Shown here: in pieces, positions 31,527-55,186 of the stretch
Layout: every line of letters begins with the position of its first letter
How positions within the stretch are numbered: position 1 is the first letter of the stretch
Source of the DNA: Schaalia odontolytica
GTDB taxonomy: Bacteria; Actinomycetota; Actinomycetes; Actinomycetales; Actinomycetaceae
DNA: 64,000 bases
Assembly: GCF_024584435.1 (NCBI RefSeq)
Contig: NZ_CP102197.1
Span: forward strand, 2,232,001 to 2,296,000
Direction: 5' to 3'
Notes under the pieces: generated by a model
The model's database searches: none
Told to the model about the DNA's origin: nothing
What the model saw: the letters and a program-made list of their open reading frames with translations, nothing else
Translations under genes and position numbers: made by a program

Positions 31527-32717
31527 ATGAGTGAGCACACGAGGCGCCGGTGGCGCCGTGCGATGGTCGGGGGAGCCGCCGTGGCGGCGGCGGTTGCCGC
31601 GGTCGTGGTCCCGGCCGCCCCGGCCTCGGCGGCGGATCCCGCTATCACGGCGGCCGAGCAGCCCTTTTACGCCTACTACTCGCTGGGGAAGATCCACTCG
31701 GCGGGATACACGGGACGGGGGGTGACGATCGCCCTGATCGACGGACCCGTGAACACCCGCATCCCGGAGCTGACGGGGGCGAGCATCGAGGATTCCAAGC
31801 CCTGTTCGGTTCAGTCGCAGGACAAGTATTGGGACCACGGCACGGTGATCGCCCAGGTCATGGTCGCCCCCGATTTCGGGGTCGCGCCGGGGGCGCACCT
31901 GAGGTCCTACAGGCTCTCGTTCGACGGGGATCAGGCCGGGTCGGATTGCGCAATTGGCGACTGGGGTCGCGGGCGCTCGGACCTGGCGCTGTTGATCGAG
32001 TCCGCGCTGAATGACGGGGTGGACGTGATCACGACGTCGTCGAGCTATCCGAGCAGCTACGAGGGGATGCGGTGGGCGCTGGCTCGGGCGATCACGCGGA
32101 AGGTCCCCGTCGTGGCGTGTACGGGCAACGACGGCGTGCGTAACTCTGCGGAGTGGCTGCCCGCGTGGTCGGGCGTCGTGGGCGTGGGCGCGATCGAGGA
32201 GGACGGAACGACGGCCTCGTATTCGAACGGGGGAGACCCGGTGTCCACGGCCGCGTTGGCCAGGCCGAACTACCGTTCCGCGACCGATGGCCAGCGCTAC
32301 CGGGGGTGGGGCACGTCCTATGCGACCCCGGTGGTCGCGGCGTCCCTGGCGCTGTCGATGCAGCGGTGGCCCAGGGCGACGGGGGACCAGATCATGCAGG
32401 GCCTGGCGCGCACGGGCGTGGGAGGCGGCGGCGGGAAGTGGAACCCGTCCACCGGGTACGGGGCGGTGGATCCGTACGCGATGCTGACGACGGATCCGAC
32501 GCGTTTCCCGGACGAGAACCCCTTCATGGACAAGGGGGCCGAGCCCGTGCCCTCCCGCCGGGATGTCCAGGACTACGCCGACGGCGTGGTGGATCCGAGC
32601 CGCATCGCGGGGGATGATTCCTACGCCTACCTGGGTTTTGACGAGTACATCGCGTTGCGCGCCAGGCACGGCTACCCGACCCACCTGGGGGCCAGCCCGC
32701 GCTACCACAGGCGGTAG
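31527..32717 (+). CDS. Secreted mycosin-like S8 serine protease with HLGxSPRYH tail
   Basis: 396 residues. Signal peptide about 1-35 (cut near ASA-AD). Catalytic triad is intact: Asp72 (ALIDGP), His104 (DHGT), Ser264 (GTSYATP). A Cys pair lies between His and Ser regions: Cys93 in KPCSV and a second in SDCAIG. The C-terminal module DENP...VQDYADG...YAYLG...HLGASPRYHRR replaces the membrane anchor seen in true MycP proteins, so it should be released or held by the tail. Tandem paralogues follow on the other strand and a fifth at 53990. Relation to the T7SS is by location and similarity to mycosins; substrate unknown. Confidence 0.88.
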   Translation: MSEHTRRRWRRAMVGGAAVAAAVAAVVVPAAPASAADPAITAAEQPFYAYYSLGKIHSAGYTGRGVTIALIDGPVNTRIPELTGASIEDSKPCSVQSQDKYWDHGTVIAQVMVAPDFGVAPGAHLRSYRLSFDGDQAGSDCAIGDWGRGRSDLALLIESALNDGVDVITTSSSYPSSYEGMRWALARAITRKVPVVACTGNDGVRNSAEWLPAWSGVVGVGAIEEDGTTASYSNGGDPVSTAALARPNYRSATDGQRYRGWGTSYATPVVAASLALSMQRWPRATGDQIMQGLARTGVGGGGGKWNPSTGYGAVDPYAMLTTDPTRFPDENPFMDKGAEPVPSRRDVQDYADGVVDPSRIAGDDSYAYLGFDEYIALRARHGYPTHLGASPRYHRR

Positions 32718-32741
32718 GCGGCGCCCAGCTGGGGTAGGGGT

Positions 32742-32760
32742 GCCGCCCAGCCGGGGCGGC
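32742..32760. terminator. Hairpin between convergent protease genes
   Basis: GCCGCCC and GGGCGGC form a 7-bp stem with a 5-nt loop between the stops of the genes ending at 32717 (plus) and 32789 (minus). No T-tract. Confidence 0.45.
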
Positions 32761-32788: not shown

Positions 32789-34018
32789 CTACTCGCGGTG
32801 GTACCTGGGGCTGGTGCCCAGGTGGATGGTGATCTTCTTACCGGTGTCGGCGAGTTGAAGCACTTTTTCGTCGGCGCCCCGGTACGTATAGGATTCGCCG
32901 AGCACGGTGTACGTTGGGTCGATGAGTCCGTCGCCGTAGTCCTGGACCTCCTGCGCCGTCGGACTCGACCCGCCCTGCTTTTGGGCCAGGGGGTTCTCGT
33001 CGGGGTACTGGGAGGGATCGGTGTTCACTAATGCACTGGGGTTGACTGCCCCGTAGCCGGTGTACTTGTTCCACTCGTGGTTGGGGTTGAGGCCGGTCGC
33101 CACCAGGACCTGGAGAATCTGGTTGGGAGTGGCGTCGGGCCACTTCTGACGCGCCAACGCCAACATACCCGAGATGATTGCCGTTGAGTTAGAGGTGCCG
33201 TTTGTAACGACGTTCTGTCCGGTTTCGTAATCCCTGCGGGTAAAGGGTTCTCCGAGCGCGGCGGTGGTGATGCCGTTGCCCCAGGAGGAGGTGTCGGCGA
33301 ATGTGCCGTCCTTGTTGATCGCCGAGACACCAACGACGCCTGACCACCGAGACAAGTGGGTGTCGTTGTCGTCACGGCCATTGTTACCTGCAGACGCAAC
33401 AACGAACGTTCCCCCACTTACCGCGCGAGCGATAGCCCATTTCAGATCGTCGCTGTCATCGGAAGCGCCATGTGACAAGGAGATGATCTGAGCTCCGTCA
33501 TCGATGGCCTGATTGATGAGCTGAGCAATAGTATCGAGCCTCTCCCCGCCTACCTCGCACGAACCCGCCGAGTGAGAACTTGAAGCTGAAATCTGGTACG
33601 TGAGCAGGGTTGCGTCGGGTGCGACGCCGTAATCATGAGCCACCAGGTAGGAGGCCATGGCGGTTCCGTGACCTCTGTCTCTCGGTGATGCTTCGATGGT
33701 GCAGCGGCTCTTATCCGTGATGTTGGCGCCCTTGAGTTCGGGGGCGCTGGTGTCGACGGGTCCGTCGATGAGGGCGATGGTCACGCCCTTGCCGGTGTAC
33801 CCCTTCGCCCGAGCCTGATCCAGGTGGTAGTAGGAGAAGTACTCCTGCGTCGTGATCACATCCTCCGCACGCGCAGGAGCAGGCACCACAGCGAGAGCAC
33901 CCACCGCCAACACGGACGCGGACACGAGCGTGGTCAGGGCGCGCGCGGCGCGCCCCGCCCATCCCACACGAGTGCGGAGCGAGGCGGGGGCACCGGAACG
34001 GGGGCGTGTCGCGATCAC
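32789..34018 (-). CDS. Secreted mycosin-like S8 protease, tandem copy 3
   Basis: 409 residues; GTG start overlaps the upstream copy by 4 nt. Signal peptide ends at ARA-ED (residue 51). Triad Asp85, His117, Ser276, the last in GTSNST rather than the usual GTSxAxP; oxyanion Asn in SAGNN. Cys106 and Cys154 form the conserved pair. The C-terminal module DENPLAQKQGG...VQDYGDG...YTYRGADE...HLGTSPRYHRE is shared with its neighbours. No membrane anchor. Signal peptide and both ends are near-identical to copies 1 and 2, while the middle diverges. Last gene of the eccC operon. Confidence 0.88.
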   Translation of the reverse strand: MIATRPRSGAPASLRTRVGWAGRAARALTTLVSASVLAVGALAVVPAPARAEDVITTQEYFSYYHLDQARAKGYTGKGVTIALIDGPVDTSAPELKGANITDKSRCTIEASPRDRGHGTAMASYLVAHDYGVAPDATLLTYQISASSSHSAGSCEVGGERLDTIAQLINQAIDDGAQIISLSHGASDDSDDLKWAIARAVSGGTFVVASAGNNGRDDNDTHLSRWSGVVGVSAINKDGTFADTSSWGNGITTAALGEPFTRRDYETGQNVVTNGTSNSTAIISGMLALARQKWPDATPNQILQVLVATGLNPNHEWNKYTGYGAVNPSALVNTDPSQYPDENPLAQKQGGSSPTAQEVQDYGDGLIDPTYTVLGESYTYRGADEKVLQLADTGKKITIHLGTSPRYHRE

Positions 34019-35253
34019 TTGCGGTGGTACCTGGGGCTGGTGCCCAGGTGAATCGGAACTGAGCTGTTGTCGGATAGACGTAGGACCGATTCATCGGTAC
34101 CGCGGTAGGTGTAGGAGTCGCTGAAAGCATCGGATGTCGGGGCAATCAGGCCGTCGCCGTAGTCCTGGACCTCCTGCGCCGTGGGGGCCGAGCCTCCCTG
34201 CTTCTGGGCGAGGGGGTTTTCGTCGGGGTATTGGGAGGGATCGGTGTTCACCAGGTCGCTGATGCTGATTGCCCCGTAGCCGGTGTACTTGTTCCACTCG
34301 TGGTTGGGGTTCAGACCCGTGTGGGTCAGGACCTGCAGGATCTGGTTGGCGGTGGCGTCGGGCCACTTCTGACGCGCGAGCGCCAGCATGCCTGCGACAA
34401 GTGGGGTGGAGACTGATGTTCCCTGTGTCTGCGCCTGAGGTTGTCCCGTTGAGGTATAGTCGCGCACTGTGACGGGGCCGCCGAGCGCTGCTGTGGTCAC
34501 GCCGTTGCCCCAGGAGGAGTAGTCGGCGAAGGAACCGTCGCTCTTGATCGCGGAGACACCGACCACTCCGGACCACCACTGTAATCCGTCCTCGTTCTCG
34601 TCGGTCCTGTTATTACCGACGGCTGCGGCGACGATGACTCCTTGGTCCATGGCGCGCGCTATTGCCCATTTCATTTCGTCTTCGTGATCATCCGAGCCGC
34701 GAGAATAGGAGATTATCTGGGCACCGTCGTCAATGGCACGATTGATGAGCGCAGAAGTAGAGTCGAGTACCTTGCCGCCGGTGAAGCAGTTGCCGTCGGA
34801 ACTGTCGGTTGTTGACGAGGAGGAGTAGGTGAGCAGCGTGGCGTCGGGTGCGACCCCGTAGTTGGGCGCGACCAGGAGGGATGCCATCAGTGTCGCGTGC
34901 CCCTTGGCCTCGGGAGAGGAGTTCGGAACGCAGGTACTCTTGTCGATGATGTTCGCGCCCTTGAGCTCCGGCGCACTGGTGTCGACGGTTCCGTCGATGA
35001 GGGCGATGGTCACGCCCTTGCCCGTGTACCCCTTCGCCCGAGCAGTATCAAGGTGGTAGTAGGAGAAGTACTCCTGCGTCGTAATCACATCCTCCGCACG
35101 CGCAGGAGCAGGCACCACAGCGAGAGCACCCGCAGCCAACACGGACGCGGAGAAGAGCGTGGTCAGGGCGCGCGCGGCGCGCCCCGCCCACCCCACACAA
35201 ACGCGAGACAGGCGGGGCACACACACGCCGAGAATCTGCCGTGCCATCATCAC
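34015..35253 (-). CDS. Secreted mycosin-like S8 protease, tandem copy 2
   Basis: 412 residues, GTG start overlapping the preceding copy (GTGA). Signal peptide ends ARA-ED. Triad residues are kept: Asp in ALIDGT, His in GHATLM (Ala where Gly is usual), Ser in GTSVSTP; Asn in AVGNN. The Cys pair lies in KSTCVP and GNCFTG. Same C-terminal module, ending HLGTSPRYHRK. Differences from copy 3 concentrate between the His and Ser motifs and just before the terminal motif, which would change substrate pockets. Product acts outside the membrane. Confidence 0.88.
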   Translation of the reverse strand: MMMARQILGVCVPRLSRVCVGWAGRAARALTTLFSASVLAAGALAVVPAPARAEDVITTQEYFSYYHLDTARAKGYTGKGVTIALIDGTVDTSAPELKGANIIDKSTCVPNSSPEAKGHATLMASLLVAPNYGVAPDATLLTYSSSSTTDSSDGNCFTGGKVLDSTSALINRAIDDGAQIISYSRGSDDHEDEMKWAIARAMDQGVIVAAAVGNNRTDENEDGLQWWSGVVGVSAIKSDGSFADYSSWGNGVTTAALGGPVTVRDYTSTGQPQAQTQGTSVSTPLVAGMLALARQKWPDATANQILQVLTHTGLNPNHEWNKYTGYGAISISDLVNTDPSQYPDENPLAQKQGGSAPTAQEVQDYGDGLIAPTSDAFSDSYTYRGTDESVLRLSDNSSVPIHLGTSPRYHRK

Positions 35254-36488
35254 TTGCGGTGGTACCTGGGGCTGGTGCCCAGGTGGATGGTGGCCTTAGT
35301 GTCCGGATCGCGCAGGAGGAACTCGTCTGTTCCCCTGTAGGCGTAGGAGGCATCGGCGGGGAGCTCGTCTGGGGCGATGAGTCCGTCGCCGTAGTCCTGG
35401 ACCTCTTGGGCCGTCGGACTCGATCCCCCCTGCTTTTGGGCCAGGGGGTTTTCGTCGGGGTACTGGGAGGGATCGGTGTTCACCAACGCACTGGGGTTGA
35501 TTGCCCCGTAGCCGGTGTACTTGTTCCATTCATGGTTGGGGTTCAGACCCGTGTGGGTCAGGACCTGCAGGATCTGGTTGGCGGTGGTGTCGGGCCACTT
35601 CTGACGCGCGAGCGCCAACATCCCAGAAGTGATCGCTGCGGCGTTTGACGTGCCGAAGGTGGTCTTGATCCGTCCCGTCTCGTAATCGCGGCCGGTGAAG
35701 GGTTCCCCGAATGCTGCGGTGGTCACGCCGTTGCCCCACGAGGAGTAGTCGGCGAAGGAACCGTCGGCAGCAATCGCGGAGACCCCGACCACGCCTGACC
35801 ATCGGCTCAACTGGTTGGCGTTGTTGTCGGCGCCGGTGTTGCCCGCGGAGTTGACGATGATGACACCCCGGCTCATCGCTCGAGCAATCGCCCACTTGAT
35901 GGCTTCATCGTCTTCACGTGCCGCTACGGAGATGGAGATGATCTGGGCGCCGTCGTCGATGGCCTGGTTGATAATCTGGTCGTAGGTATCAAGTCTGTTG
36001 CCACCGATATCGCATGATCCCGCAGACTTTGATTCGCTCGTGGATACCTGGTAGGTGAGCAGGGTCGCGTCGGGTGCGACGCCGTAGGCGGGTGCGACCA
36101 GGTAGGAGGCCATGGCGGTTCCGTGGCTTCTATCGTTCGGAACCGCCTCGATGGTGCAGCGGCTCTTATCCGTGATGTTGGCGCCCTTGAGTTCCGGCGC
36201 ACTGGTGTCCACCGGTCCGTCGATGAGGGCGATGGTTACGCCCTTACCCGTGTACCCCTTCGCCCGGGCAGTATCCAGGTGGTAGTAGGAGAAGTACTCC
36301 TGCGTCGTAATCACATCCTCCGCACGCGCAGGAGCAGGCGCCACAGTGAGAGCACCCGCAGCCAACACGGACGCGGACAACACAGTGGTCAGGGCGCGCG
36401 CGGCGCGCCCCGCCCACCCCACACAAACGCGAGGCAAACGGGACGCGCCACCATCATGGTTCAGGTCCACATGGTTTGGGTTCACCAT
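35250..36488 (-). CDS. Secreted mycosin-like S8 protease, tandem copy 1
   Basis: 412 residues from ATG at 36488, which overlaps the stop of the PPE-like gene; GTG at 36485 and TTG at 36503 are alternatives. Signal peptide ends ARA-ED. Triad: Asp in ALIDGP, His in SHGTAM, Ser in GTSNAA; Asn in SAGNT. The Cys pair is in KSRCTI and GSCDIG. Ends HLGTSPRYHRK with the shared module before it. First of three head-to-tail copies that are probably translated by coupling from the T7SS substrate genes. Confidence 0.87.
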   Translation of the reverse strand: MVNPNHVDLNHDGGASRLPRVCVGWAGRAARALTTVLSASVLAAGALTVAPAPARAEDVITTQEYFSYYHLDTARAKGYTGKGVTIALIDGPVDTSAPELKGANITDKSRCTIEAVPNDRSHGTAMASYLVAPAYGVAPDATLLTYQVSTSESKSAGSCDIGGNRLDTYDQIINQAIDDGAQIISISVAAREDDEAIKWAIARAMSRGVIIVNSAGNTGADNNANQLSRWSGVVGVSAIAADGSFADYSSWGNGVTTAAFGEPFTGRDYETGRIKTTFGTSNAAAITSGMLALARQKWPDTTANQILQVLTHTGLNPNHEWNKYTGYGAINPSALVNTDPSQYPDENPLAQKQGGSSPTAQEVQDYGDGLIAPDELPADASYAYRGTDEFLLRDPDTKATIHLGTSPRYHRK

Positions 36489-38116
36489 TGGCGAGGATCC
36501 CAACCATCATCAGCGCGCTTGGCCGGAGCAATATCCTTATCCGACCCATACGTCTGAGACATCGGATTCACATAACCCGCAGGCAGACCATCCTCATCCT
36601 CATCCTCAAACCTAAACGCCACATACTTACGCCGACGCGACTTCTTATCCTGCTTACCAGCACCCGCACCAGCACCAGCACCACCACCCATGAAGCCACC
36701 AGCACCAGCGCCACCACGACCAGCAGCACCCGCGGCGCCACCCGCGCCACCAGCACCCGTCGTCCCCGTCACACCAGAAGACCCAGCAGCACCAGAACCA
36801 GCCACACCATTAGCACCAGCAACACCAGCAGGCGGCTTATACGAGCCAAAACCCGACCCCGAATACGAGCCAACCTTCAAACCAGCAGCGCCCGCGCCAC
36901 CGGCGCCCGTACTACCACTGATGCCACGCAACCCGGCAGCACCCGCGCCGCCCATGCCGCGCAGCCCGGCAGTACCCAGGCCGCCGGCGGAACCCAGGGA
37001 GCCCGACCCCATGCGGGCAGCGCCACGCAGGCCCAGGCCGCCCACACCCAGCACGCCCGCGCCGCCCAGGCGACCGGCCACAGACGAGTCAGACGACGCG
37101 GCGCCACCGTTGAGGCGCCACAACGGATGATCCACATCAGCCGGCGGAGCAGGCGTGTGACCGCCCACCACACCGTTACGATACGCAGTCCCATTAACCC
37201 GCGTATGCAACAAATCCGTCCCCATCAAATCCTGCGGATCCGTAATCGGATTCGTCCGAGACCCCACCTCACCATACGCAGGCTCCTGCGTTGGTAGCGC
37301 ACCAGACGCAATCGTCCGATTACGCGCAGCAGCAGCATCAGCCTCACTCAACCACGGCTGATCAAACCCACCCGGATACGCACCCGACGACGGACTACGC
37401 CCCGCCTGACGACCATAACCATCGGAGGGGGAGTACCCCCAACCGGGATTGCTGCCACTACCGGGCCTAGTTCCTGAGCCGGAATCAGCACCCTGGCCAT
37501 CGCCTCGTGAACCGTTTTCCGTATCGTTGCCCGGCCCCTTCGGAGAGGAGGGATCCGGATGATCGCCGCGCTTCATCCTGGTACCGAGCTTGGAGGTGAG
37601 GGAGTTGACCATGTTGAGCACGCGCTCGGCGGCGGCCTCGCGCTGGGCGTTGGCCTGAGCCTCGACCGCCTCGACGTAGGCCGCGCCTGTGGTGAAACGT
37701 GTGTTAATGGGGGAGACATTGATGCCACCGCCCGGCTGATCGGAAGGAACAGCCACGACCCAGCTGTCGCGCATAGCCTCGGTCTTGGAATCCAACAGAT
37801 CCGGCGAGATCGTCTCGGCCTCACGCAGAGCTGACGCCATGACGTCTCTGCCCTGCTGGTAGGTGCTGTGTCCGCGCTCGTAGCGCGCCCGGTAGCCCTC
37901 AATGCGCCTGATCGACTGCTCGACCCAGTCGTTCATGGCGTTGCCGGTCTCGCCGGTAAAGCCGTGGCCCGCGCGGTAGGTCGTCAGGCGCTCGATGGCG
38001 TCCGCGAAGCCCTGCATGGTCTTCTTGTGGTCGGCGTTCCAGGCGTCGAGGCTCTGGTTGGCCTTGGCGGCCTCCATGAACACCTTGAGGCGCTCGTAGT
38101 TCGGTGACGAAACCAT
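36482..38116 (-). CDS. PPE-like T7SS substrate candidate with Gly/Ala-rich C-terminus
   Basis: 544 residues; AGAAAGGA precedes the ATG. The N-terminal about 190 residues are predicted helical and resemble WXG/PPE-type T7SS substrates (helical hairpin region around MQGFADAIERL and MNDWVEQSIRR). A Pro/Gly/Ser linker follows, then a Gly/Ala-rich region of GAGGAGAAGL-type repeats (about 345-490). A basic then acidic end follows (KKSRRRKYVAF, EDEDED), with the C-terminus GWDPRQW. The helical half uses C/G-ending codons; much of the C-terminal half (36.51-36.94 and 37.10-37.44 kb) uses T/A-ending codons, so the gene may be a mosaic. Secretion role is inferred from fold and from lying between eccC and the mycosin-like genes. 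Confidence 0.65.
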   Translation of the reverse strand: MVSSPNYERLKVFMEAAKANQSLDAWNADHKKTMQGFADAIERLTTYRAGHGFTGETGNAMNDWVEQSIRRIEGYRARYERGHSTYQQGRDVMASALREAETISPDLLDSKTEAMRDSWVVAVPSDQPGGGINVSPINTRFTTGAAYVEAVEAQANAQREAAAERVLNMVNSLTSKLGTRMKRGDHPDPSSPKGPGNDTENGSRGDGQGADSGSGTRPGSGSNPGWGYSPSDGYGRQAGRSPSSGAYPGGFDQPWLSEADAAAARNRTIASGALPTQEPAYGEVGSRTNPITDPQDLMGTDLLHTRVNGTAYRNGVVGGHTPAPPADVDHPLWRLNGGAASSDSSVAGRLGGAGVLGVGGLGLRGAARMGSGSLGSAGGLGTAGLRGMGGAGAAGLRGISGSTGAGGAGAAGLKVGSYSGSGFGSYKPPAGVAGANGVAGSGAAGSSGVTGTTGAGGAGGAAGAAGRGGAGAGGFMGGGAGAGAGAGKQDKKSRRRKYVAFRFEDEDEDGLPAGYVNPMSQTYGSDKDIAPAKRADDGWDPRQW

Positions 38117-38141: not shown

Positions 38142-38708
38142 TCAGAAGTCGTCGGGGGCAGAAGTGGCAGCCGGAGCGTTCCTCGTGCCCTCGGTCTCCC
38201 CGCCGGATGCGACGCCGGCCGCGGCACCGGCTGCGGCGCCCGTCGCGGCGCCCGCCGCCACGCTACCGCCAAGGAAGCCGCTTGCCGCCGCGAGGGCCGC
38301 GTTCAGGGCGGAAGCCTCCTGCGAGTTGTTCACCCGCGCCAGAGCGTGCGCCACGGCGCCCTTCTGCGCGCTTTCGTCCATCGATCCGCGAATGTTGTGG
38401 ACCGCGTCCGCGTTCTCCGAATCGGTGCGGGTGTGGGACTCCATCGCGTTGCGCATCTCGGTCTCGAACCGGCCGATCAGGTCATTCTCCTTCGACAGGA
38501 TGTCCGAGATCGCGCTGAACATGTCGCTGGAGCGGTGCCCGAACGTGGACGGGCCGCGCTCGCTGCCCCACACGCTTGACGTCTGAGCCGAGCTGAGGGC
38601 GTAGGAGGCCCTCGACGAGGTCTGGACGGCCTCCTGGCTCTCCTGCACCTTCGGGGCAACCTGGCCCTGCTTTTCACTGTCGTAGCTGACTCCGCCTTCG
38701 CCTGGCAT
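38142..38708 (-). CDS. WXG-superfamily-like T7SS substrate or chaperone candidate
   Basis: 188 residues; AGGAG lies 6 nt before the ATG. Residues about 1-110 form a long helix-turn-helix pattern with a turn at SSVWGSERG, similar in size to WXG100/EspC-type T7SS proteins. The C-terminal part is Ala/Gly-rich and hydrophobic (about 125-170), then polar. No exact family match. It sits between the lipoprotein and PPE-like genes, 25 bp before the latter, so the two may be a secreted pair in the manner of PE/PPE or EspC/EspA. Confidence 0.55.
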   Translation of the reverse strand: MPGEGGVSYDSEKQGQVAPKVQESQEAVQTSSRASYALSSAQTSSVWGSERGPSTFGHRSSDMFSAISDILSKENDLIGRFETEMRNAMESHTRTDSENADAVHNIRGSMDESAQKGAVAHALARVNNSQEASALNAALAAASGFLGGSVAAGAATGAAAGAAAGVASGGETEGTRNAPAATSAPDDF

Positions 38709-38759: not shown

Positions 38760-39299
38760 CTACTTCGACACCTTAAAACGCCGCACCAACGGCTGAGCGG
38801 GCTGATCCGGCCCCTCAACCTTCAACGTCCACACATACGTCACATCGGAGCCGCTAGGCTCCACGTCCACCGTCCACGACGAGTAATACTCACAATCCTG
38901 CTCCACACACAGGTCATACGTATCCTGCCCCAAACGCCAATAATCCGTGGCCGACATCATCTTGTAGACCATGTCATCCTTATTTACAGCAACCTTGTTC
39001 TGCCCATCCAGCTTGAACTTCTGCCCCGAAATATCAGACGGATCCACACCCACCAACTGAGCACCCACCATCGCACTCAACGCCTGAGCCTTCGCCGCAA
39101 TCTTCTGCTTCTCCGCACCCGACGCCGCATTAAACTGGCTCACCAGCTCCTGCTTCTGACCCTCCGGAATATTCTTCAGCCCACTGATGTCACCACCGCG
39201 ACCACCACCAAGGCCCGGCACACACCCCGACAACGCCACAGCACCACACGCCACCAACGAAACCGCCGCCAACACACGACGCGACACAAGAGAAGACAT
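38760..39299 (-). CDS. Lipoprotein of the T7SS locus, unknown function
   Basis: 179 residues from ATG at 39299, chosen over TTG at 39305 because AGGAG is 6 nt upstream of the ATG. A lipobox ALSGC ends the signal peptide, so the protein should be anchored on the outer face of the membrane. The mature part has a helical half and a beta-rich half with a Cys pair (YDLCVEQDCEYY). No family recognised. Codons end largely in G or T (GGT, GAT, AAG, TTG), unlike the C-ending codons of eccC next door, which hints at separate origin. Confidence 0.7.
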   Translation of the reverse strand: MSSLVSRRVLAAVSLVACGAVALSGCVPGLGGGRGGDISGLKNIPEGQKQELVSQFNAASGAEKQKIAAKAQALSAMVGAQLVGVDPSDISGQKFKLDGQNKVAVNKDDMVYKMMSATDYWRLGQDTYDLCVEQDCEYYSSWTVDVEPSGSDVTYVWTLKVEGPDQPAQPLVRRFKVSK

Positions 39300-39364
39300 C
39301 CTCAACTCCTACTTTCAAACTGGTCAATGATAAGCAAGTCCTGGGCCTCCCTGTCAAGGACGGT

Positions 39365-42300
39365 TCACATGGCGGGTGGGGTCCACGTCAGCTGCGCGGC
39401 AACCACCCCGAGGTCGCGGTGGATGACCTGCGCGCGGCCCGGGACGGCGCGTCTGGGCTTCACGCCGTTGATGATCGCGCCCTCCTTCGGATTACCCGAC
39501 AGGAGGATGCCGGTCACAGCCAGGTCGCCCATCATCTGTATAACCTTCTCGTAGGCCGCGCGCGACGCGCCACCCATGCGGCGGGTGATGATCACGTGCA
39601 GGCCGATGTCGCCCGCCTGCGGGAGCAGGTCGATGAGCTCCATGAGCGGGTTGCCCGACGTGGTGGCCACCAGGTCGTAGTCGTCGACCAGGATCCACAC
39701 CTCCGGACCCGACCACCACGTGCGTTCGCGGATCTGCTCCGCGGTCACGTCCGAGCCGGGCAGGCGCGTGCGCATGAACTTCGCCAGGTCCCGCAGCTGC
39801 CCGATGGCCTCCTGGTGGTTGGTCAGGTAGCGCAGCGAATAGTCCTCCGGGATGTCTCCCAGGAGCGAGCGGCGCATGTCCAGGGCCACGATCTTCGCCT
39901 CGTTGGGGGAGTACAGGCGCGTGATCTCCTGGATGATGGAGCGCAGGAACGCCGTCTTCCCGGTCTTCGCGTCGCCGAAGAGGTAGAGGTGAGACTCCGA
40001 GCGCGTGTTGAAGAGCAGGGGCCCGAGGCGCGACTCCTCCAGGCCGAGGATCATGTCCCCGCCGCCGCGCGGCAGAATCTGCTGCTCCGGAAGCTGTGCG
40101 AGGATCTCCTGGCCCGTGATGCGCTCGGGCAGCAGGCGCAGCTTCGGCCCCTCCCCGGCCACCAGGCACTCGCGGATCTTCTTCACCGTGTAGGCCACGC
40201 CCTGCGACACGGTCGTCGGATCCTGCTCCTCGTCCGCGCGGGGCAGGCCGATCATCATCTCGTGCCCAACCATGTCGATGCCTCGACCCGGGCGCCCCTT
40301 CGGGATGCGGGCCGCGCCCTCGCGGTTGACGATCGACTCCTTCGGATTCGCCGTGTGCAGCTCCAGGCGCGACCCGAAGATGTCCTGAGCCTCCGAACGA
40401 ATGTCCATCCAGCGCGCAGCGGCAATCACCAGGTGAACGCCCAGCGACAGGCCTCGGCTCATCATCGTCGTCACCTCTTTGTCGAGGCTGTCGAACTCCG
40501 AGCGCAGCGCGCCCCAGCCGTCGACCACCAGGAACACGTCGCCGTAGCCGTCGTCGTAGCGGCCCTCCAGGCGCCCGCGCCGGTAGGTGTCCATCGAATC
40601 GATGCCGTTGTGGCGGAAGTAGCGCTCGCGGTCATCCATGATGGAGGCGATCTCGGCGAGCATACGCGTGCGCACCTCGGGGGTGTCGCGCGTCGCGATG
40701 CCGGCCACGTGCGGCGCGCCGTCGAAGCCCGCGAACGTGCCGCCACCGAAGTCCATCACGTAGAACTGGACCTCCTGCGGCGTGTAGGTCAGCGACAGGG
40801 CCTGCACGATCGTGCGCAGCGCCGTCGACTTACCCGTCTGAGGGCCGCCGACGAGCGCGAAGTTACCGCCCGCCCCCGACAGGTCCAAGACCAGGGTTTC
40901 GCGCCGCTGCTCCAGCGGCAGGTCGACCGTGCCCAGCGGGACGCGCAGCGTCCCCGACTCACGCCACGCGCGAGACACGAAACCCAGGTCCGGGTCGGCG
41001 CGCAGGTCCGGCATGAGGGTCGCAAAGGTGTCCGGAACCTCCAGGGGAGGCAGCCACACCTGGTGAGCGGGGTAGCCCTTGCCCTTCATCTTCGCCACGG
41101 CGATGTCCATCTCGGACATGTCCGCCCACTCCTCGTCACCGGCCAGGACCACCTCCTGGTTCTGGTCGACCTCCTCCTTGTCCTCACCCAGGGAGTCGGC
41201 GCGCGTGATCACGGGAGCCACCGTGAACGGCAGAATCTCGATCGGGGCGCTCGGGGCGCCCGCCGTTGAGGCCTCGGACAGGGAGGCCAAGGTGCGGGCG
41301 GGCGGAGGAGCGGCCACGTAGGACGCGCGGAAGCGAACCAGGCCGTCTCCACCGGCCTTGAGGTAACCCGAACCGGGCAGGGGAGGAAGCTTCGCGGCGT
41401 CCGGAATACCCAGGACCTCGCGCGAATCGTTCTCCGTGAACGTCTTCAGGGCGACGCGGTAGGACAGGTGCGACTCCAGGCCGCGCGCCTTACCCAGATC
41501 CATCTTCTGCGAGGCCAGCAGCAGGTGAACCGACAGCGAACGGCCCAGACGGCCGATCATGATGAAGACCTCGCCGAACTCCGGCTTGGCCACCAGCATT
41601 TCCGTGAACTCGTCCAGGACGATGAACAGGGCGGGCAGCGGCGGGAACTCGTGCTTGCCCGCCAGGCGGTCGGCCTCGTAGTCGCTCACGTTCGCGTAGT
41701 TGCCCGCCTGGCGCAGCATCTCCTGGCGGCGAACCATCTCGCCCTGCAGCGCGTCCTGCATGCGGTCAACCAGGGACAGCTCCGACTCCAGGTTCGAAAT
41801 CATGGCCGACACGTGGGGCAGGTCCGCCATGCCCGCGAAGGTCGCGCCACCCTTGAAGTCGACGAGCACCAGGTTCAGCTGCTCGGGCGAGTGGGTCAGC
41901 GCCAGCGCCAGCACCAGCGTGCGCAACACCTCGGACTTACCCGAACCGGTCGCGCCGATCAGCAGGCCGTGGGGGCCCATGCCCTGCTGGGCGGATTCCT
42001 TGATGTCCAGGACGACGGGCTTGCCCTCGGGGGTCACCGCGAAGGGGGCGGCCAGGCGCTCGCGGCCCTCGCGGCGACGCCACTGCTTCTCGGGGTCGAA
42101 ATCGCGGATGTCGCCGATGCCCACCAGCTCCATGAGGTCCTTCTGGCGGGACTCGTCCGAGCGGCCCACCGGCGTGTCGGCCTCCTCCAGGCTCTGCTGG
42201 GTCGCAAATGGCGTCATCCGGCGGGCAATCGCCTCCGCCTGGACCGCCGACAGTCGGTCCGCGTGCGCGCTCTCGGGAACCGAGTCCATGGTGACCACGT

Positions 42301-43423
42301 CGACCACGTCGGAGCCGTTTCGGTCCGCGCTGGGGTGGATGACCAGGCGCAGCGTCGTGTGCGAGGTCATCGGGGTCCACTCGCGCGCGCGGCTCATGAT
42401 CGTCACGCCGCGAACGCCCGAGGGGGAGGCCAGCGGCGAGGAGGAGGGGAACTCGGCCCCGTCGCACACCAGCAGCAGGTGAGGCCACTCCGGCATGTCG
42501 TCCGTGAAGCGGAAGGGACCCCTCATCGGGATGTCCGGGCCGATCATCTCGGCAAGCTCTGCGGGATCCGTGGAGATCATGCGGCCCGGACCCACCGCGT
42601 CGCGCACGAAGGAGGAGCGCGCCTGAGGCATCCACTTGACCCACTCCCAGTCGCCCAGCCGATCGGCCGAACACAGGACCGCGATCTTGAGCTTCGACGG
42701 CTCGATGAAGCACGCCAGGTGCATCATGATGGCGCGCATCTCGTCGTAGACGGACTCGCCCTCACCCGCGACCTCAATGTGGCTGAAGTCGCCCAGGTAC
42801 AGGAACATGCCGACGTTATCCGTGTGGTCATGAACCCCGATGAAGCGGTCCATCGCAGACAGACACACGACGTCCATCTCGGTCATCGGGTCGATCGGCG
42901 GACGGTTGAACGTCAAGCCGAGGGGCTGGGTGCCGCTGCCGTAGCGGAACGCCAGCAGGTCGTAGGTGTTGCCCTCGCGCGACCATAGGCGCGAGCCGTT
43001 GGCCGCCAGCGTCACCAGCGCGTCCGGGTCCGGGTACACCCAGTTGTAGTAGGCGCGCTGCTTCTTGGCGACCTTGCGCACGGCCTCGCGGGTCTCCGCC
43101 AGGTACGACAGGTACTCGCGGCGCTGGGTCACCACGCGCGTGCGGTACTGGGAGAACTGGCGGTACATGTTGAAGCCGACCATGCCCAGCATCGCCACGA
43201 GCATGCCGCCGCCCATCAGCAGCATGCGCGGGTTGGACTGCTGCTGTTGCTGCTGCAAGGCCATGAAGATCATGACGCCGGTCGAACCCAGCATCGGGAT
43301 GACCATCATCAAGACGTTGCCGATCGACGCGGGCTCGGCTTTCTCCGGCGGAATCTGGAGGTCAAGGGTGCCCGAGGGCTGCTCTGGAACCTTGGCGATG
43401 CGCCTCTTTTTGCGTGTAACCAT
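39365..43423 (-). CDS. eccC: T7SS FtsK/SpoIIIE ATPase EccC
   Basis: 1352 residues; AGGAG 5 nt before the ATG. Two membrane helices (about 34-57 and 66-86) are followed by a DUF-type stalk and three ATPase domains. All three have intact Walker A motifs: GATGSGKSE, GGPQTGKST and GDAKTGKTA. The first domain also shows VLVDFKGGATF as Walker B. EccC is the motor that recognises WXG100 partners and drives export; a single fused chain (not split Ca/Cb) is the ESX-4-like arrangement. It heads the minus-strand operon running to 32789 and is divergent from the eccD-like gene. Confidence 0.96.
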   Translation of the reverse strand: MVTRKKRRIAKVPEQPSGTLDLQIPPEKAEPASIGNVLMMVIPMLGSTGVMIFMALQQQQQQSNPRMLLMGGGMLVAMLGMVGFNMYRQFSQYRTRVVTQRREYLSYLAETREAVRKVAKKQRAYYNWVYPDPDALVTLAANGSRLWSREGNTYDLLAFRYGSGTQPLGLTFNRPPIDPMTEMDVVCLSAMDRFIGVHDHTDNVGMFLYLGDFSHIEVAGEGESVYDEMRAIMMHLACFIEPSKLKIAVLCSADRLGDWEWVKWMPQARSSFVRDAVGPGRMISTDPAELAEMIGPDIPMRGPFRFTDDMPEWPHLLLVCDGAEFPSSSPLASPSGVRGVTIMSRAREWTPMTSHTTLRLVIHPSADRNGSDVVDVVTMDSVPESAHADRLSAVQAEAIARRMTPFATQQSLEEADTPVGRSDESRQKDLMELVGIGDIRDFDPEKQWRRREGRERLAAPFAVTPEGKPVVLDIKESAQQGMGPHGLLIGATGSGKSEVLRTLVLALALTHSPEQLNLVLVDFKGGATFAGMADLPHVSAMISNLESELSLVDRMQDALQGEMVRRQEMLRQAGNYANVSDYEADRLAGKHEFPPLPALFIVLDEFTEMLVAKPEFGEVFIMIGRLGRSLSVHLLLASQKMDLGKARGLESHLSYRVALKTFTENDSREVLGIPDAAKLPPLPGSGYLKAGGDGLVRFRASYVAAPPPARTLASLSEASTAGAPSAPIEILPFTVAPVITRADSLGEDKEEVDQNQEVVLAGDEEWADMSEMDIAVAKMKGKGYPAHQVWLPPLEVPDTFATLMPDLRADPDLGFVSRAWRESGTLRVPLGTVDLPLEQRRETLVLDLSGAGGNFALVGGPQTGKSTALRTIVQALSLTYTPQEVQFYVMDFGGGTFAGFDGAPHVAGIATRDTPEVRTRMLAEIASIMDDRERYFRHNGIDSMDTYRRGRLEGRYDDGYGDVFLVVDGWGALRSEFDSLDKEVTTMMSRGLSLGVHLVIAAARWMDIRSEAQDIFGSRLELHTANPKESIVNREGAARIPKGRPGRGIDMVGHEMMIGLPRADEEQDPTTVSQGVAYTVKKIRECLVAGEGPKLRLLPERITGQEILAQLPEQQILPRGGGDMILGLEESRLGPLLFNTRSESHLYLFGDAKTGKTAFLRSIIQEITRLYSPNEAKIVALDMRRSLLGDIPEDYSLRYLTNHQEAIGQLRDLAKFMRTRLPGSDVTAEQIRERTWWSGPEVWILVDDYDLVATTSGNPLMELIDLLPQAGDIGLHVIITRRMGGASRAAYEKVIQMMGDLAVTGILLSGNPKEGAIINGVKPRRAVPGRAQVIHRDLGVVAAQLTWTPPAM

Positions 43424-48892: not shown

Positions 48893-48920
48893 AGGGGCCG
48901 CCCCATCTGGGGCGGCCCCT
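48893..48920 (-). terminator. Strong terminator after the WXG100 pair
   Basis: AGGGGCCGCCCCA and TGGGGCGGCCCCT form a 13-bp perfect stem around TC, 22 bp beyond the WXG100 stop. On the minus strand it is followed by TTTCC. Confidence 0.8.
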
Positions 48921-48942
48921 CTATGCTCTCCGAGCGACGCTA

Positions 48943-49224
48943 TCAGAAGCGGGCAGCGCTGGACTGGTCCGTCTGCTGGTAGTTGGTGCGAGCGGAGTCA
49001 ACGGCGGTCGAGGTCTTACGCAGGACGTCCTTCAGGCCGTTAAGGCCCTCGTTCCACTTGCGCTGGGCGGCCTGGTAGGCTTCCTGAGCCTGGCCTTCCC
49101 ACGACGCGACCAGCTGGTTGAGCGTCTGCTCGAGGTCGCTCAGGCAGCTATCGAGGTTGCCTGCACCGGTGTTGATGTCAGCGGCGGCCTGATCGAGGGC
49201 GCCGTACTGTACCTGGAAATCCAT
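48943..49224 (-). CDS. WXG100 protein, EsxB (CFP-10)-like
   Basis: 93 residues, helical hairpin with Trp42-Glu-Gly44 at the turn. The C-terminus has NYQQTD (Tyr82 to Asp86), matching the YxxxD/E secretion signal read by EccC, which marks it as the CFP-10-like partner. It lies 21 bp after its partner gene. Exported as a folded heterodimer by the T7SS. Confidence 0.93.
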   Translation of the reverse strand: MDFQVQYGALDQAAADINTGAGNLDSCLSDLEQTLNQLVASWEGQAQEAYQAAQRKWNEGLNGLKDVLRKTSTAVDSARTNYQQTDQSSAARF

Positions 49225-49245: not shown

Positions 49246-49551
49246 TCACAGTCCGCCGAGAAGCTGAGAGAACGTGCTCTTAGTATCGGCCTCGTTGGCT
49301 TCCATGGACTGGTGCGTGCCGCGCAGGTTGTCAGCGAGCTCCTGCAGAGCCTCGTTAATCTTGCGGGCATTGTCCTGCCACTGCTGCATCAGCTGCGTGA
49401 ACTGGACAGAAGCCGCGCCCTGCCAGGAGCTGCCGATGGTTGACAGGTCGCCCTCGAGACGGGAGAAGTGACCCTGCAGGTCGGCGTAGGTCGACTCGAT
49501 AGCCTGTACGCCCCTAGGAAGGGCGCCGTCCTCGGCCCTCTGGTCTGCCAT
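49246..49551 (-). CDS. WXG100 protein, EsxA (ESAT-6)-like
   Basis: 101 residues from ATG at 49551 with GGAGG 5 nt upstream; ATG at 49563 and a much longer open frame are rejected. Turn motif Trp43-Gln-Gly45 in SSWQGAA. It lacks YxxxD/E, as expected for the ESAT-6-like partner. Its leader contains an 8-bp hairpin (49580-49601, CTCTCGCG against CGTGAGAG) that may affect translation or mRNA stability. Confidence 0.93.
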   Translation of the reverse strand: MADQRAEDGALPRGVQAIESTYADLQGHFSRLEGDLSTIGSSWQGAASVQFTQLMQQWQDNARKINEALQELADNLRGTHQSMEANEADTKSTFSQLLGGL

Positions 49552-51114: not shown

Positions 51115-52566
51115 ATGCCGTCGAGTAAAGACATCCTTGAAGCCCAGCGCTTCAATCGCAGTCGCCTGATCACCGCTTTCACATCCGGCACCCCCAACGG
51201 ACGCGAGGTTGACACTCCCTCGCCCGTTCGTCCGCTCATCTTCGGAGTCGTCGTCGCCGTCATCATGTGCGTGATCGGCGTGGCTACTCGCTTCTTCAGT
51301 TCGAATCCGGACCTGAACACGGTGAACTACGAGCTGATCAACGTCAAGGACACCGGCGCCCGCTACTTCTGGGCGAACGGCGTGCTTCACCCGATCAAGA
51401 ACATCACGACGGCTAAGCTCCTCGCGCCGGAATCGGGACTCGGTTCAACGAAGGCCAGTGCTGCTGCCCTCGAGAACTATCCGCGAGGCCCCCAGCTTGG
51501 CCTCGATAACGTCCCCGAAGACGTTCCCGCCGCCAAGCAGCTAGCGAGCACGTGGCTGTCGTGCGATCTGGACGACTCCTCGCACACGTGGATCGCCAAG
51601 AGCCTGCCCTCCGAGCAGTTCAAGCTCACGGAGACCACCTCGGCGCTCGTGACCCCCGATCACGGGGGAACCAGGTACTTCATTGACGGAACCACGCATA
51701 AGAAGTACCTGATCAACGACGCCGACAGTCGCGAGAGCGAATGGGCGCTCGCGTTCCAGAACATCATCGCCTACCCGATCGACGTCGAGCCCGAGTGGCT
51801 TGAGCTCTTCCCGTCCGGCACGCGGCTGAGATCGTGGAGCTATCACGACATCCCGAACGCCGGCCAGCCTGCGACGAAGCTCCCCGGTTCCCTCAAGGAC
51901 AAGGGGCTGACGATCGGCATGGTCGTTGACCAGATCGATTCCAACGGTCAGGTCCTCAACTCCTACCTGGTCGTCGACGAAGCTAACCTGGCGGTCTTCA
52001 ACTCGACCGCGGCGCGCCTGTACAAGGACGCGCCGACCGGCAAGCAGCTCCCGACCGAGGAGTTCAAGGACATCGCCCCCGTCCACGCCGACTTCATCGG
52101 AGAGGACTGGCCGCCGTACGAGCACTTTGCCCAGGCCGAGTGGGCGAACGACAAGCGAGACTCGGCCACTCAGACGGTCGTGTGCGCGAAGATGGATACC
52201 ACCGATCACGCGGTGCCCAAGATCGGCCTGTACACGATGCCCAAGAAAGACGCGGACGCCGCCTCCTACGATCCGGAGTCCCTGAACGCCACGACAGGGC
52301 CGGTGACGACGCGCAAGGTGACGGTCGGCGGCGGTTCGGGCGCCCTCGTCGCGATTTCCCCCGGGGGTGGAGAGGCCGCCGCCTACGGCTTCGTTTCCGA
52401 CCTGGGATACTTCCACTCCCTCGGAGACGTGCCGAGCACCTCCATCAAGCTCCTCGGGTGGACGCAGGCCGACGCGACAGCCATCCCGCAGGCGTGGAGC
52501 AACCTCATCCCGCAGGGCGCCGAACTGACGCCCAAGGCGGCAGCGGCCTCAGTGGGGCTCTCGTGA
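51115..52566 (+). CDS. eccB: T7SS membrane protein EccB
   Basis: 483 residues. A short cytoplasmic N-terminus with the typical SKDILEAQRFNRSRL opening is followed by one membrane helix (41-60) and a large extracellular domain. That domain has a Cys pair (SCDLDD, VVCAKMD) and repeats that form the EccB outer ring. EccB joins EccC and EccD in the membrane core. The stop overlaps the mycP start (GTGA). No eccE gene is present in the window, consistent with an ESX-4-like minimal system. Confidence 0.93.
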   Translation: MPSSKDILEAQRFNRSRLITAFTSGTPNGREVDTPSPVRPLIFGVVVAVIMCVIGVATRFFSSNPDLNTVNYELINVKDTGARYFWANGVLHPIKNITTAKLLAPESGLGSTKASAAALENYPRGPQLGLDNVPEDVPAAKQLASTWLSCDLDDSSHTWIAKSLPSEQFKLTETTSALVTPDHGGTRYFIDGTTHKKYLINDADSRESEWALAFQNIIAYPIDVEPEWLELFPSGTRLRSWSYHDIPNAGQPATKLPGSLKDKGLTIGMVVDQIDSNGQVLNSYLVVDEANLAVFNSTAARLYKDAPTGKQLPTEEFKDIAPVHADFIGEDWPPYEHFAQAEWANDKRDSATQTVVCAKMDTTDHAVPKIGLYTMPKKDADAASYDPESLNATTGPVTTRKVTVGGGSGALVAISPGGGEAAAYGFVSDLGYFHSLGDVPSTSIKLLGWTQADATAIPQAWSNLIPQGAELTPKAAAASVGLS

Positions 52567-53993
52567 GCGGCGGCACTGTCCGTTCGCGGGCGTTTGGACG
52601 AGGCCTTGTCGGCGCCTCGCTGACCGTCGGCCTCGCGCTCGCACCCCTGGTCGTGCCCACCTCCTCACACGAGGCAGGGAACGCCTCCGCCTTCGGTGCC
52701 CGCGTAGCTCACGCGGACCCGGTGCCGACCCCCAGCGTGCGCCCCACGCCCACCGCTCCGCCTACCGAGGCGCCCAGCCCGACTCCGAAGCCAACGGAGA
52801 ACCAGACGTGCCCGCAGGAGAGTCCGACGTACATCAAGGCTCAGCCCGCGATCCTCGATCACGTTGGGGTGCGGCGAGCGTGGGAGGTGTCGCGGGGCTC
52901 GGGAGTCACGGTCGCCGTGGTCGACTCGGGCGTCGCAGCCGGTAACCAGCACTTCAACGCGAGCGGCAAGACGGTCGTGTTGCCGGGGGTCGACTTCAGC
53001 GGCGAGAACACCGATGGGCGCGTCGACGTGGGGGAGCACGGAACCGCCATCGCGGGGGCGATCGCCGCCCAGCAGCTGCCCTCCTCCGTCGGTTCGGGGC
53101 TCATCGGCGTTGCCCCCGACGCGCAGATTCTTCCCGTTCGTGTCGAGACCGGCCTCGAACAGGGGGGGAACGCCAACCCGAAGCAGGGTGAAGAGACCTT
53201 CATGCAGCGCGTGGCGCGCGCGATCCGATGGGCTTCCGACCACGGCGCGCAGATCATCGTGGTCGCTCACTCGTCCGCCGAAAGCGATCCGCAGCTGGAG
53301 GCCGCCATCCAGGCCGTGCGGTCTCGCTCGCTCGTGGTGGCCTCGACGGGCAATACCTACCAGGATCAGCAGGACAAGCAGATCGTCTACCCGGCAGCCT
53401 ACGAGGGGGTTCTGGCGGTGACCGCCAGCAACGCGGACGGCTCCTCCTCCGACCAGCAGGTCCACGGCGCGCACGTCGACGCGGCGGTTCCCGCCGGCGT
53501 CATTCACACCACGTGGTTCGACCAGGCCGACTGCCTGGTCGGCGGGTATTCCGGTGACACACCCCTCCCGTCCTCCTCGTACGCGACCGCCTACGCGGGA
53601 GGGTTCGCGGCTCTCGTGGCCTCCCGATACCCCAACGAGTCACCGGATATGTGGAAGTATCGCTTGGAGGTGACCGCCGTGCGCGGAACCGCAGATCAAC
53701 GCACTGATGAACTCGGGTGGGGAATCCTTTCCCCCTACGATGCCCTGACCTTCGACGACATCGGCACGAGGTTCGGCCCGCCTCACCCGAACCCCGCAGC
53801 GCACCCCGCACCGCAGCATCCCGCCCAGGCTGCGCCGAGGCTGGTGGGGCGCGACACCATTCTCACCATCCGCACATACATCGTCTCGGCCGTGGTGGTG
53901 CTGGGATCTGCGCTGCTTGGCGGCCTGGTGATCCTCTCTCACCTGCGCGGGCGGCCCAGCGTCGTCGAAGACCCCGAGGAGGACCTGTCGTGA
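52563..53993 (+). CDS. mycP: Membrane-anchored mycosin protease MycP
   Basis: 476 residues from the GTG at 52563. Signal peptide about 1-50, Pro/Thr-rich extension (PTPTAPPTEAPSPTP), then the S8 domain: Asp in AVVDSG, His in EHGTAIAG, Ser in SSSYATA (Ser where GTS has Gly). A C-terminal membrane helix (about 436-458, IVSAVVVLGSALLGGLVIL) anchors it, as in all true mycosins, which stabilise the T7SS core from outside. Ends in an acidic cytosolic tail. Its stop overlaps the next protease gene. Confidence 0.93.
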   Translation: MSGGTVRSRAFGRGLVGASLTVGLALAPLVVPTSSHEAGNASAFGARVAHADPVPTPSVRPTPTAPPTEAPSPTPKPTENQTCPQESPTYIKAQPAILDHVGVRRAWEVSRGSGVTVAVVDSGVAAGNQHFNASGKTVVLPGVDFSGENTDGRVDVGEHGTAIAGAIAAQQLPSSVGSGLIGVAPDAQILPVRVETGLEQGGNANPKQGEETFMQRVARAIRWASDHGAQIIVVAHSSAESDPQLEAAIQAVRSRSLVVASTGNTYQDQQDKQIVYPAAYEGVLAVTASNADGSSSDQQVHGAHVDAAVPAGVIHTTWFDQADCLVGGYSGDTPLPSSSYATAYAGGFAALVASRYPNESPDMWKYRLEVTAVRGTADQRTDELGWGILSPYDALTFDDIGTRFGPPHPNPAAHPAPQHPAQAAPRLVGRDTILTIRTYIVSAVVVLGSALLGGLVILSHLRGRPSVVEDPEEDLS

Positions 53994-55186
53994 GCACGAT
54001 ACTGACGAGGCGCCGTGCGCGCCTTGGGACCACGGTTGCGAGCATCCTCGCATTGACGGGCGGCCTACTCGCTGTTCCCTCCGTTCCAGCCAACGCCGTC
54101 GGGCCCACGCTCACGGGCGCGGACCAGGAGTACTACGGCTACTACCGCCTCGATTCCCTGCACTCTCAGGGCTACACGGGGGAGGGAACGATCATCGCGA
54201 TGATCGATGGGCACGTGAATACGAACGTGCCGGAGCTGGCGGGAGCGCACATCGAGAACAAGTCCCCCTGCGCCGTGTCCTCCAACGCCGAGGATCTCGA
54301 TCACGGGACTGCCGTCGCGCAGATCCTGGTGTCTTCCCGATTCGGTATCGCGCCCAAAGCTACCCTCTACACCTACGATTTGGCCTACCGGGACGAGGAG
54401 GCGGGCGCGGATTGCAAAATGCCCGGGTGGAATGGCGCAGGGGCCGCCGACACCTCGTTGCTCATCGAACAGGCGATCAACGACGGCGCGGACATCATTT
54501 CCATCTCCAGCAACTACCCCTACCAATCGCAGGACCTGCGGTGGGCGATGGCCCGCGCCCTGGCCGAGGGGGTCATCGTCGTCGCGTCGATGGGGAATGA
54601 TTCGACCGAGGACGCTGGCGATGGGCTTCCCGTGTGGTCGGGCGTCTGCGGGGTCGGAGCCATCTACGCCGACGGCTCACTGACCGACTACAGCAACTGG
54701 GGCAACGGTATCGAAACGGCCGCCCTGGGCAGGAGCTACTTCCGCTCCGGCTCGGATGGGAGCATCCGCGATGCGCAGGGCACGTCCTTCGCGACGCCCA
54801 TTGTCGCAGGTTTTCTGGCCATCGCGTGGCAGAGGTTTGGTGACGATGTGACGTCGAATCAGATCCTGCAAGCGATGACCACGACGGGCGTGGGAGGCAA
54901 CGGCGAGTGGAACATGTACACGGGATTCGGTGCGATTGACCCGTGGGCGATGCTCAATGCGAAGGCAGGCAGCCTTCCCGACGAGAACCCGTGCGAGTCC
55001 AAAACCTACGCCTCGGATCCCAGCTGGCAGGATGTTGAAGACTACATAGATGGCACCGTCAACCCGTTGTTGATCAGAAACGACGACTCCTACGTCTATC
55101 GCGGCACGAACGAGAACGCCGCCTTCGACTCCCAGCACGACTACCCCGTGCACCTGGGCACCAGCCCCCGCTATCACGCGAGCTGA
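53990..55186 (+). CDS. Secreted mycosin-like S8 protease with HLGTSPRYH tail (fifth copy)
   Basis: 398 residues, GTG overlapping the mycP stop. Signal peptide ends near ANA-VG. Triad: Asp in AMIDGH, His in DHGTAVA, Ser in GTSFATP. The conserved Cys pair is in KSPCAV and ADCKMP. It shares the C-terminal module (DENP, VEDYIDG, YVYRGTNE) ending HLGTSPRYHAS. It lacks the anchor of MycP. Placement directly behind mycP ties this protease family to the T7SS. Confidence 0.9.
   Translation: MSTILTRRRARLGTTVASILALTGGLLAVPSVPANAVGPTLTGADQEYYGYYRLDSLHSQGYTGEGTIIAMIDGHVNTNVPELAGAHIENKSPCAVSSNAEDLDHGTAVAQILVSSRFGIAPKATLYTYDLAYRDEEAGADCKMPGWNGAGAADTSLLIEQAINDGADIISISSNYPYQSQDLRWAMARALAEGVIVVASMGNDSTEDAGDGLPVWSGVCGVGAIYADGSLTDYSNWGNGIETAALGRSYFRSGSDGSIRDAQGTSFATPIVAGFLAIAWQRFGDDVTSNQILQAMTTTGVGGNGEWNMYTGFGAIDPWAMLNAKAGSLPDENPCESKTYASDPSWQDVEDYIDGTVNPLLIRNDDSYVYRGTNENAAFDSQHDYPVHLGTSPRYHAS

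Follow-up and report, generated by a model that had tools for sequence, protein, structure and literature searches.

A 64,000-nucleotide stretch of the Schaalia odontolytica genome (contig NZ_CP102197.1, positions 2,232,001-2,296,000 of a 2.39 Mb single-contig genome), referred to here as the window, contains a type VII secretion system (T7SS) locus together with five S8-family subtilases that share a C-terminal tail (Table 1). We designate the tailed subtilases C, the WXG-like protein encoded beside them A, and a helical, Gly-rich protein B, with G numbers for genomes and L numbers for locus stretches. Gene calls around the C copies, made with a simple coding-score caller, order the minus-strand operon as eccC, a lipoprotein gene, A, B, C, C, and C, and the plus-strand genes as eccD, eccB, mycP, and C. 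This arrangement bears out a preliminary description of this DNA, in which three copies ended the eccC operon and one directly followed mycP.

Table 1. Features of the T7SS locus and the tailed subtilases in the window (aa, amino acids; positions are those of the window).
Feature	Position	Strand	Details
Tailed subtilase C, stand-alone, 396 aa, after Ser/Thr kinase gene	31527..32717	+	tail nonapeptide 32682-32708
Tailed subtilase C, third in tandem, 409 aa	32789..34018	-	nonapeptide 32798-32824
Tailed subtilase C, second in tandem, 412 aa	34015..35253	-	nonapeptide 34024-34050
Tailed subtilase C, first after B, 417 aa, TTG start uncertain	35250..36503	-	nonapeptide 35259-35285
B, 544 aa, probable T7SS substrate	36482..38116	-	helical N-terminal 184 residues; Gly/Ala-rich middle; last 34 residues strongly conserved, ending ..DDGWDPRQW
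A, 188 aa, WXG-like partner	38142..38708	-	W-x-x-E-x-G-P motif by eye; no Pfam match
Small predicted lipoprotein	38760..39305	-	by eye, from L003 homologue
EccC, FtsK/SpoIIIE ATPase, first gene of the A-B-C-C-C operon	39365..43423	-	
Two WXG100 genes	48943-49224, 49246-49551	-	
EccD	49750-51111	+	
EccB	51115-52566	+	
MycP, canonical membrane-anchored mycosin	52563..53993	+	C-terminal helix; clade apart from tailed proteases
Tailed subtilase C after mycP, 398 aa	53990..55186	+	tail module ~residues 331-398; nonapeptide 55151-55177

The five tailed open reading frames are real as first described. Each protein begins with a hydrophobic segment that resembles a signal peptide by eye, keeps the catalytic Asp, His, Asn, and Ser, and carries a PDENP..DYxDG..YxYxG module and HLG(T/A)SPRYH near its C-terminus, and a hydrophobicity scan found no C-terminal membrane helix in any of them, while the MycP has one. 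The count of five, however, covers less than half of the family. A whole-genome search returned 22 S8 matches, 12 of which belong to the tailed family, all of these reaching the tail, with five inside the window and seven outside the window and its T7SS locus. The feature is real, and the family is larger and older than first described. The Cys pair, which had been placed between the catalytic His and Ser, instead brackets the His, the order in the 53990 copy being Asp73, Cys94, His105, Cys142, and Ser266. Because named relatives of this copy belong to Schaalia odontolytica (P0003, 88% identity) and Actinomyces sp. HPA0247 (L136, 71%), the group is called Schaalia/Actinomyces-like here; these species dwell in the mouth. 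The number of copies per genome in this group reaches a dozen or more.

Conservation of the active site was assessed in 121 C proteins, defined by scores above 150 bits in fetched stretches of all 23 tail-bearing genomes, whose copies were fetched in part; 19 weaker hits, mostly MycP and including two tail fragments, were set aside. Both cysteines are kept in 121/121 aligned proteins, and Asp, His, Asn, and Ser are all kept in 110 of the 119 complete members, the other two being fragments. The catalytic Asp is missing in nine of the 119, which comprise five members of one D-to-G group, two D-to-E changes, and two proteins from G025 and G027 that also lack His and Asn, and the tail motif is kept in all nine. 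The D-to-G sub-lineage (L027, L035, L038, L041, and L094) looks intact in the rest of its sequence, and its members may be pseudoproteases or proteases with a changed mechanism. That catalysis was lost in G025 and G027 following loss of B was considered and dropped, as the single-sequence search had missed B in both genomes and a profile found diverged B proteins there (frames of ~650 aa). Conservation is comparatively low in segment 175-180 (rank 15 of 251), a strand that presumably lines the specificity pocket as in subtilisin, and variation is greater still in other loops. No Pfam propeptide family matched the N-terminus of three scanned copies, and in an anti-phage library two Cs gave only generic subtilase and IetS matches and A one weak JukA match.

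The tail follows a different pattern of conservation. Among 95 copies from eight copy-rich genomes, the mean top-residue frequency is 0.95 for the nonapeptide (residues 388-396); residues 45-330 and the complete tail region both average 0.64. Of 278 catalytic-domain windows of nine residues, none is as conserved as the nonapeptide, so that the near-invariant ending is not a product of chance. Two islands, YxYRG (368-372) and HLGTSPRYH, are conserved within the tail, and the spacer is variable. Across the 88 copies with the exact pattern, Gly and Pro are each encoded by all four of their codons, a variety that favours selection at the protein level over gene conversion. In three scanned copies the Pfam matches stop before the tail (the tail by itself was not searched against Pfam), in agreement with the expectation that it is not a known Pfam domain. 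A model of the 53990 copy has a predicted local distance difference test score of >=70 for 245 of 398 residues, mostly in the catalytic domain, and of <50 in residues 362-379 and 381-398. A possible YxxxD/E T7SS motif in the tail (YRGxD, by eye) was dropped because the acidic residue is missing in the 53990 copy and in some early branches. The degree of conservation supports the earlier suggestion that the tail may act as a binding or sorting signal.

How the tail relates to a membrane anchor is illustrated by the C-terminal hydrophobic segments of the 121 proteins, defined as a stretch of 19 residues in the C-terminal portion whose Kyte-Doolittle value exceeds 1.8. This segment is absent in 118/121, namely in the two fragments and in 116 proteins whose tail motif lies no more than 60 residues from the end. 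The three other proteins, from G003, G030, and G031, carry the tail motif, then a linker, and then a membrane helix. A one-step replacement of the anchor by the tail was rejected on this account, and because these three proteins have both, the tail is not a simple substitute for the anchor.

The distribution of the system was examined in 58 genomes, 35 of which, including the source genome, belong to the same genus; the co-occurrence counts in this sample carry no correction for kinship. Tailed C was found with a 76-aa tail query in 23/58 genomes, all within the genus, while EccB occurs in 29/58, 25 of them in the genus. Within the genus the tail is present in 23 of 25 EccB-positive genomes (the misses being G011 and G017) versus none of 10 EccB-negative ones, and B in 25/25 versus 0/10, as judged by a profile whose rows derive from some of the searched genomes. 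Over the whole sample this profile found B in 26/58 genomes, the 25 of the genus and G047, that is, in 26/29 EccB-positive and 0/29 EccB-negative genomes. With a single B sequence as query, B was detected in 19 of the 25 genus genomes that have EccB, and three EccB-negative genomes of other genera (G036, G042, and G045) yielded weak, partial matches (E 6e-5 to 8e-4). In G011, two long B genes (L100 and L101; 660- and 629-aa frames) occur alongside EccB and MycP, with no tailed protease.

Among 396 genomes drawn from the order, 67 have EccB. B (E <=1e-6) was found in 29/396, a search in which at most three candidates were scored per genome, so that misses are likely, and 28 of these 29 genomes have EccB; the exception is G337 (89% complete, ~580 contigs). 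Outside the genus, 22 genomes are B-positive; B lies within 10 kb of EccB in 18 of them, and not in G279, G324, G327, and G337. The tail model (<=14 candidates scored per genome) matched 13/396 genomes, six of the genus and seven of other genera, and the matches outside the genus (E 6e-7 to 9e-4) cover only model positions 2-36, which is the PDENP linker. Together with its absence from the EccB-negative genomes of the genus, this pattern speaks against the module being widespread in genomes that lack a T7SS. The comparison of genomes within the genus supports the tie to the T7SS drawn by the preliminary description, and seven of the 12 copies of the source genome lie away from the T7SS locus.

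Two sets of T7SS stretches from other families place the tailed proteases relative to mycosins. The first (L127-L135) was reached via weak linker hits in seven cases and via EccB in two, and the second (L137-L152; 16 loci, 15 genomes) was picked by B alone, from the 22 B-positive non-genus genomes minus six already fetched and G337. These loci carry a similar A/B/C trio, the match to A being weak, and a separate MycP adjoins wherever the stretch reached mycP (e.g., L127, L129, L134, L137-L148). A second S8 protease, here termed C-type, lies directly beside B in 12 of the 16 B-chosen loci; L148 has a C-type protease without a called B, and in L146, L149, L150, and L135 no C-type protease was found. 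All 13 full-length C-type proteins carry a hydrophobic segment at the C-terminus and lack the tail; L151 adds a 76-aa piece. In the helix scan nine C-type rows have the helix without the tail and 15/15 MycP rows have the helix. Two family hidden Markov models, both of which include rows from the genus of the window, tell the lineages apart: the C model scores C-type proteins at 298-412 bits and MycP proteins at 67-138, and the MycP model scores them at <=79 and 371-435 bits, respectively. A tree of 73 rows, rooted on two other S8 rows only and leaving out the C rows of copy-rich G012, G020, G023, G026, G029, and G034, fragments, and four MycP rows, joins the tailed clade (49 rows, 100/99) to the C-type proteases in a clade of 57 rows (99/97) and keeps MycP separate (14 rows, 99/92). 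The C-type proteases alone are grouped more weakly (92/71), and the tree does not settle the branching order of early genus members.

Because the T7SS loci of other families carry a similar trio and a separate MycP, the tailed proteases are a second T7SS-linked subtilase lineage distinct from mycosins, and the label 'mycosin-like' that was first given to them is not supported. They resemble MycP mycosins (TIGR03921) in their S8 catalytic domain, signal-peptide-like N-terminus, and gene positions at or near T7SS loci, but differ in forming their own clade, in the missing C-terminal helix of the window copies, and in coexisting with a distinct MycP. With the C-type S8 proteases they share a clade and the proximity of A- and B-like genes, whereas the C-type proteins have a linker and helix and no tail, and are mostly encoded inside the T7SS locus rather than spread genome-wide. 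The best NCBIfam match of the tailed proteases is the T7SS mycosin family TIGR03921, at 136-176 bits versus a cut-off of 278.75. This score is a poor discriminator, because the MycP of the window itself, at 222.8 bits, falls under the cut-off and because, among four further S8 proteins of this genome that served as controls (152, 137, 77, and 74 bits), two score in the range of the tailed proteases; a mycosin identity based on it was dropped. No mycosin structure is among the structure matches listed for C, a result that is uninformative on the relationship.

Most C genes follow an A/B gene pair. A typical A is WXG-like and ~170 aa long; a typical B has ~500 aa, with a helical N-terminus, a Gly-rich composition, and an acidic-Trp end (with exceptions to the Trp ending), and neither has a visible signal peptide. 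Compared with Pfam, PF06013 included, the A protein of the window matched 0 families, and its W-x-x-E-x-G motif recurs by eye in many A proteins. B has no significant match in PDB chains or Pfam and is no known toxin by the families searched, and the structural match of its N-terminal part to PPE proteins is at noise level, inseparable from helical noise. In each of six stretches outside the window (L001-L006), a C follows immediately after B or a piece of B, which with the window gives seven cassettes, five with an intact B and two (L002 and L005) with a truncated or interrupted one; the 31527 and 53990 copies stand alone, without B nearby. Of the 121 C genes, 58 have B immediately upstream and 5 have it downstream, and a further 20 are separated from an upstream B by other Cs, a total of 83/121 that includes the three tandem copies of the window. 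B and the adjacent C also diverge together: their protein distances correlate among same-genome paralogues (r 0.44; 40 pairs; 0/2000 within-genome permutations). These A/B pairs, which are probably exported, support the suggestion that the multiplicity of the proteases matches several exported proteins. The view that the cassettes are mobile elements is unsupported, because they keep recurring neighbours in related species, as judged by gene-size patterns only, with no transposase search made.

A functional precedent is EspB of mycobacterial ESX-1. MycP1 is described as cutting EspB in its C-terminal part upon secretion, after which EspB oligomerises (PMC9811218, PMC5082899), and EspB is named as the only known mycosin substrate as of 2016 (PMC5082899). 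B is like EspB in its T7SS association, helical N-terminal part, and accompanying protease, and unlike it in its lack of significant PDB or Pfam matches and in that its partner A is apparently a protein of its own, where EspB has a PE half fused to it. A mycosin-like protease is also reported near the Ntox38 polymorphic toxin of actinobacteria (PMC3482391), a case in which a subtilase again lies beside a probable T7SS-exported protein. Subtilisin BPN' and its relatives differ, BPN' being a tailless Bacillus exoprotease with another role. Judged by titles and the opening of abstracts, none of the papers among the matches listed deals with these proteins or with a T7SS of Schaalia. Type VII secretion is mentioned in a genomic study of Actinotignum (PMC10692110).

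We propose that the tailed Cs are dedicated maturation proteases for exported B proteins and that the tail is a shared docking signal to one partner. C would probably be exported by the general (Sec) route, given its signal-peptide-like N-terminus, and A and B probably by the T7SS. Outside the cell, C may trim B, thereby releasing or activating it, by analogy with MycP1 and EspB. The near-invariant tail would dock the Cs to one common partner, which could be the T7SS channel, the surface, or the envelope, while the catalytic sites appear to have diversified in step with different B proteins. In the examined relatives of other families, C is predicted to be held in the membrane by its C-terminal helix, whereas in this genus C would have gained the module ending GTSPRYH and most species would have lost the linker and helix; on the simplest reading the tail was gained first and the anchor lost later, perhaps repeatedly. 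C would also have multiplied in this genus together with its probable substrate. Two results bear on this proposal: the catalytically incomplete, tail-keeping members are the strongest against a purely proteolytic role, and the 38/121 C genes without B in the fetched stretch are the strongest against strict pairing. Both fit docking by the tail better than a protease serving a single neighbour, and we therefore lean towards the proposal with moderate confidence. A wider scenario is tentative, although a serious candidate, in which T7SS loci of the order often encode MycP and a second subtilase for one A/B pair, and in which this genus freed the unit from the locus and amplified it into cassettes of substrate and protease. 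A single secretion system would then be shared by many cargo-specific maturation enzymes that differ in specificity but carry a common docking motif, some members keeping the docking function only.

The same observations can be read in other ways. The tail could be a surface retention signal, binding wall or polysaccharide, that succeeded the membrane helix, so that the Cs would be general surface or defence proteases whose proximity to A and B is historical. The complementary occurrence of the two endings fits this idea, as 116/121 genus members have the tail without the helix, and the 13 full-length C-type proteins and nine scanned rows have the helix without the tail, and so does the persistence of Cs beside truncated B. 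The idea is nonetheless unlikely in view of the tail motif and helix occurring together in G003, G030, and G031, the restriction of the tail to EccB-positive genomes among the 58 searched, and the recurrence of a similar trio in other families. The nine tail-keeping members without the catalytic Asp, two of them also without His and Asn, would instead be explained if the main role of the tailed proteins were a non-proteolytic one, in assembling or scaffolding the exported A/B complexes or the T7SS, with the tail as their functional end and proteolysis secondary. Mycosins offer a precedent, being described as stabilising ESX complexes, with the catalysis of MycP1 dispensable for secretion (PMC5082899, PMC5156307). 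Such a role is quite unlikely, given that Asp, His, Asn, and Ser are intact in 110/119 complete members despite strong sequence divergence.

It is least probable, and in our view doubtful indeed, that the tail is an autoinhibitory or maturation segment that folds back on the protease and is cut off at activation. Its form would suit such a function, as it is a short conserved segment separate from the catalytic domain with a variable spacer ahead of it, and no N-terminal propeptide family was matched in the three scanned copies. However, members without catalytic residues keep the tail, and the tail is nearly constant while the catalytic domain diverges.

The dedicated-protease proposal bears on the question of why T7SSs need a protease and what mycosins cut, which becomes directly testable with a second, separable T7SS subtilase that is genetically tied to a candidate substrate, outside mycobacteria. 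A near-invariant nine-residue motif on a dozen diverging proteases of one genome likewise provides a handle for a common partner, and the cassettes may matter for surface building by oral Actinomycetaceae.

Several neighbouring features complete the window. Immediately 5′ of the first tailed protease, the plus-strand region 20067-31415 encodes a 2014-aa protein with Big_9, cadherin-like, and fn3 repeats, followed by DUF58, transglutaminase-like, and Ser/Thr kinase genes. On the 3′ side of the 53990 protease, at 55554-58644 (+), lie YbaB/EbfC-family, EspC-like (slightly below the cut-off), and weakly WXG100-like genes, which we take to be reminiscent of ESX-1 accessory genes. In ~2 kb amid the T7SS genes (46956-48943), the coding-score caller called no gene, and mechanical open reading frames are present; an Rfam scan of the window at the gathering threshold gave no match. 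The predicted lipoprotein at 38760-39305, for which no family matched, recurs in relatives, where it adjoins A within the T7SS operon or, as in G010 and G019, lies next to C.

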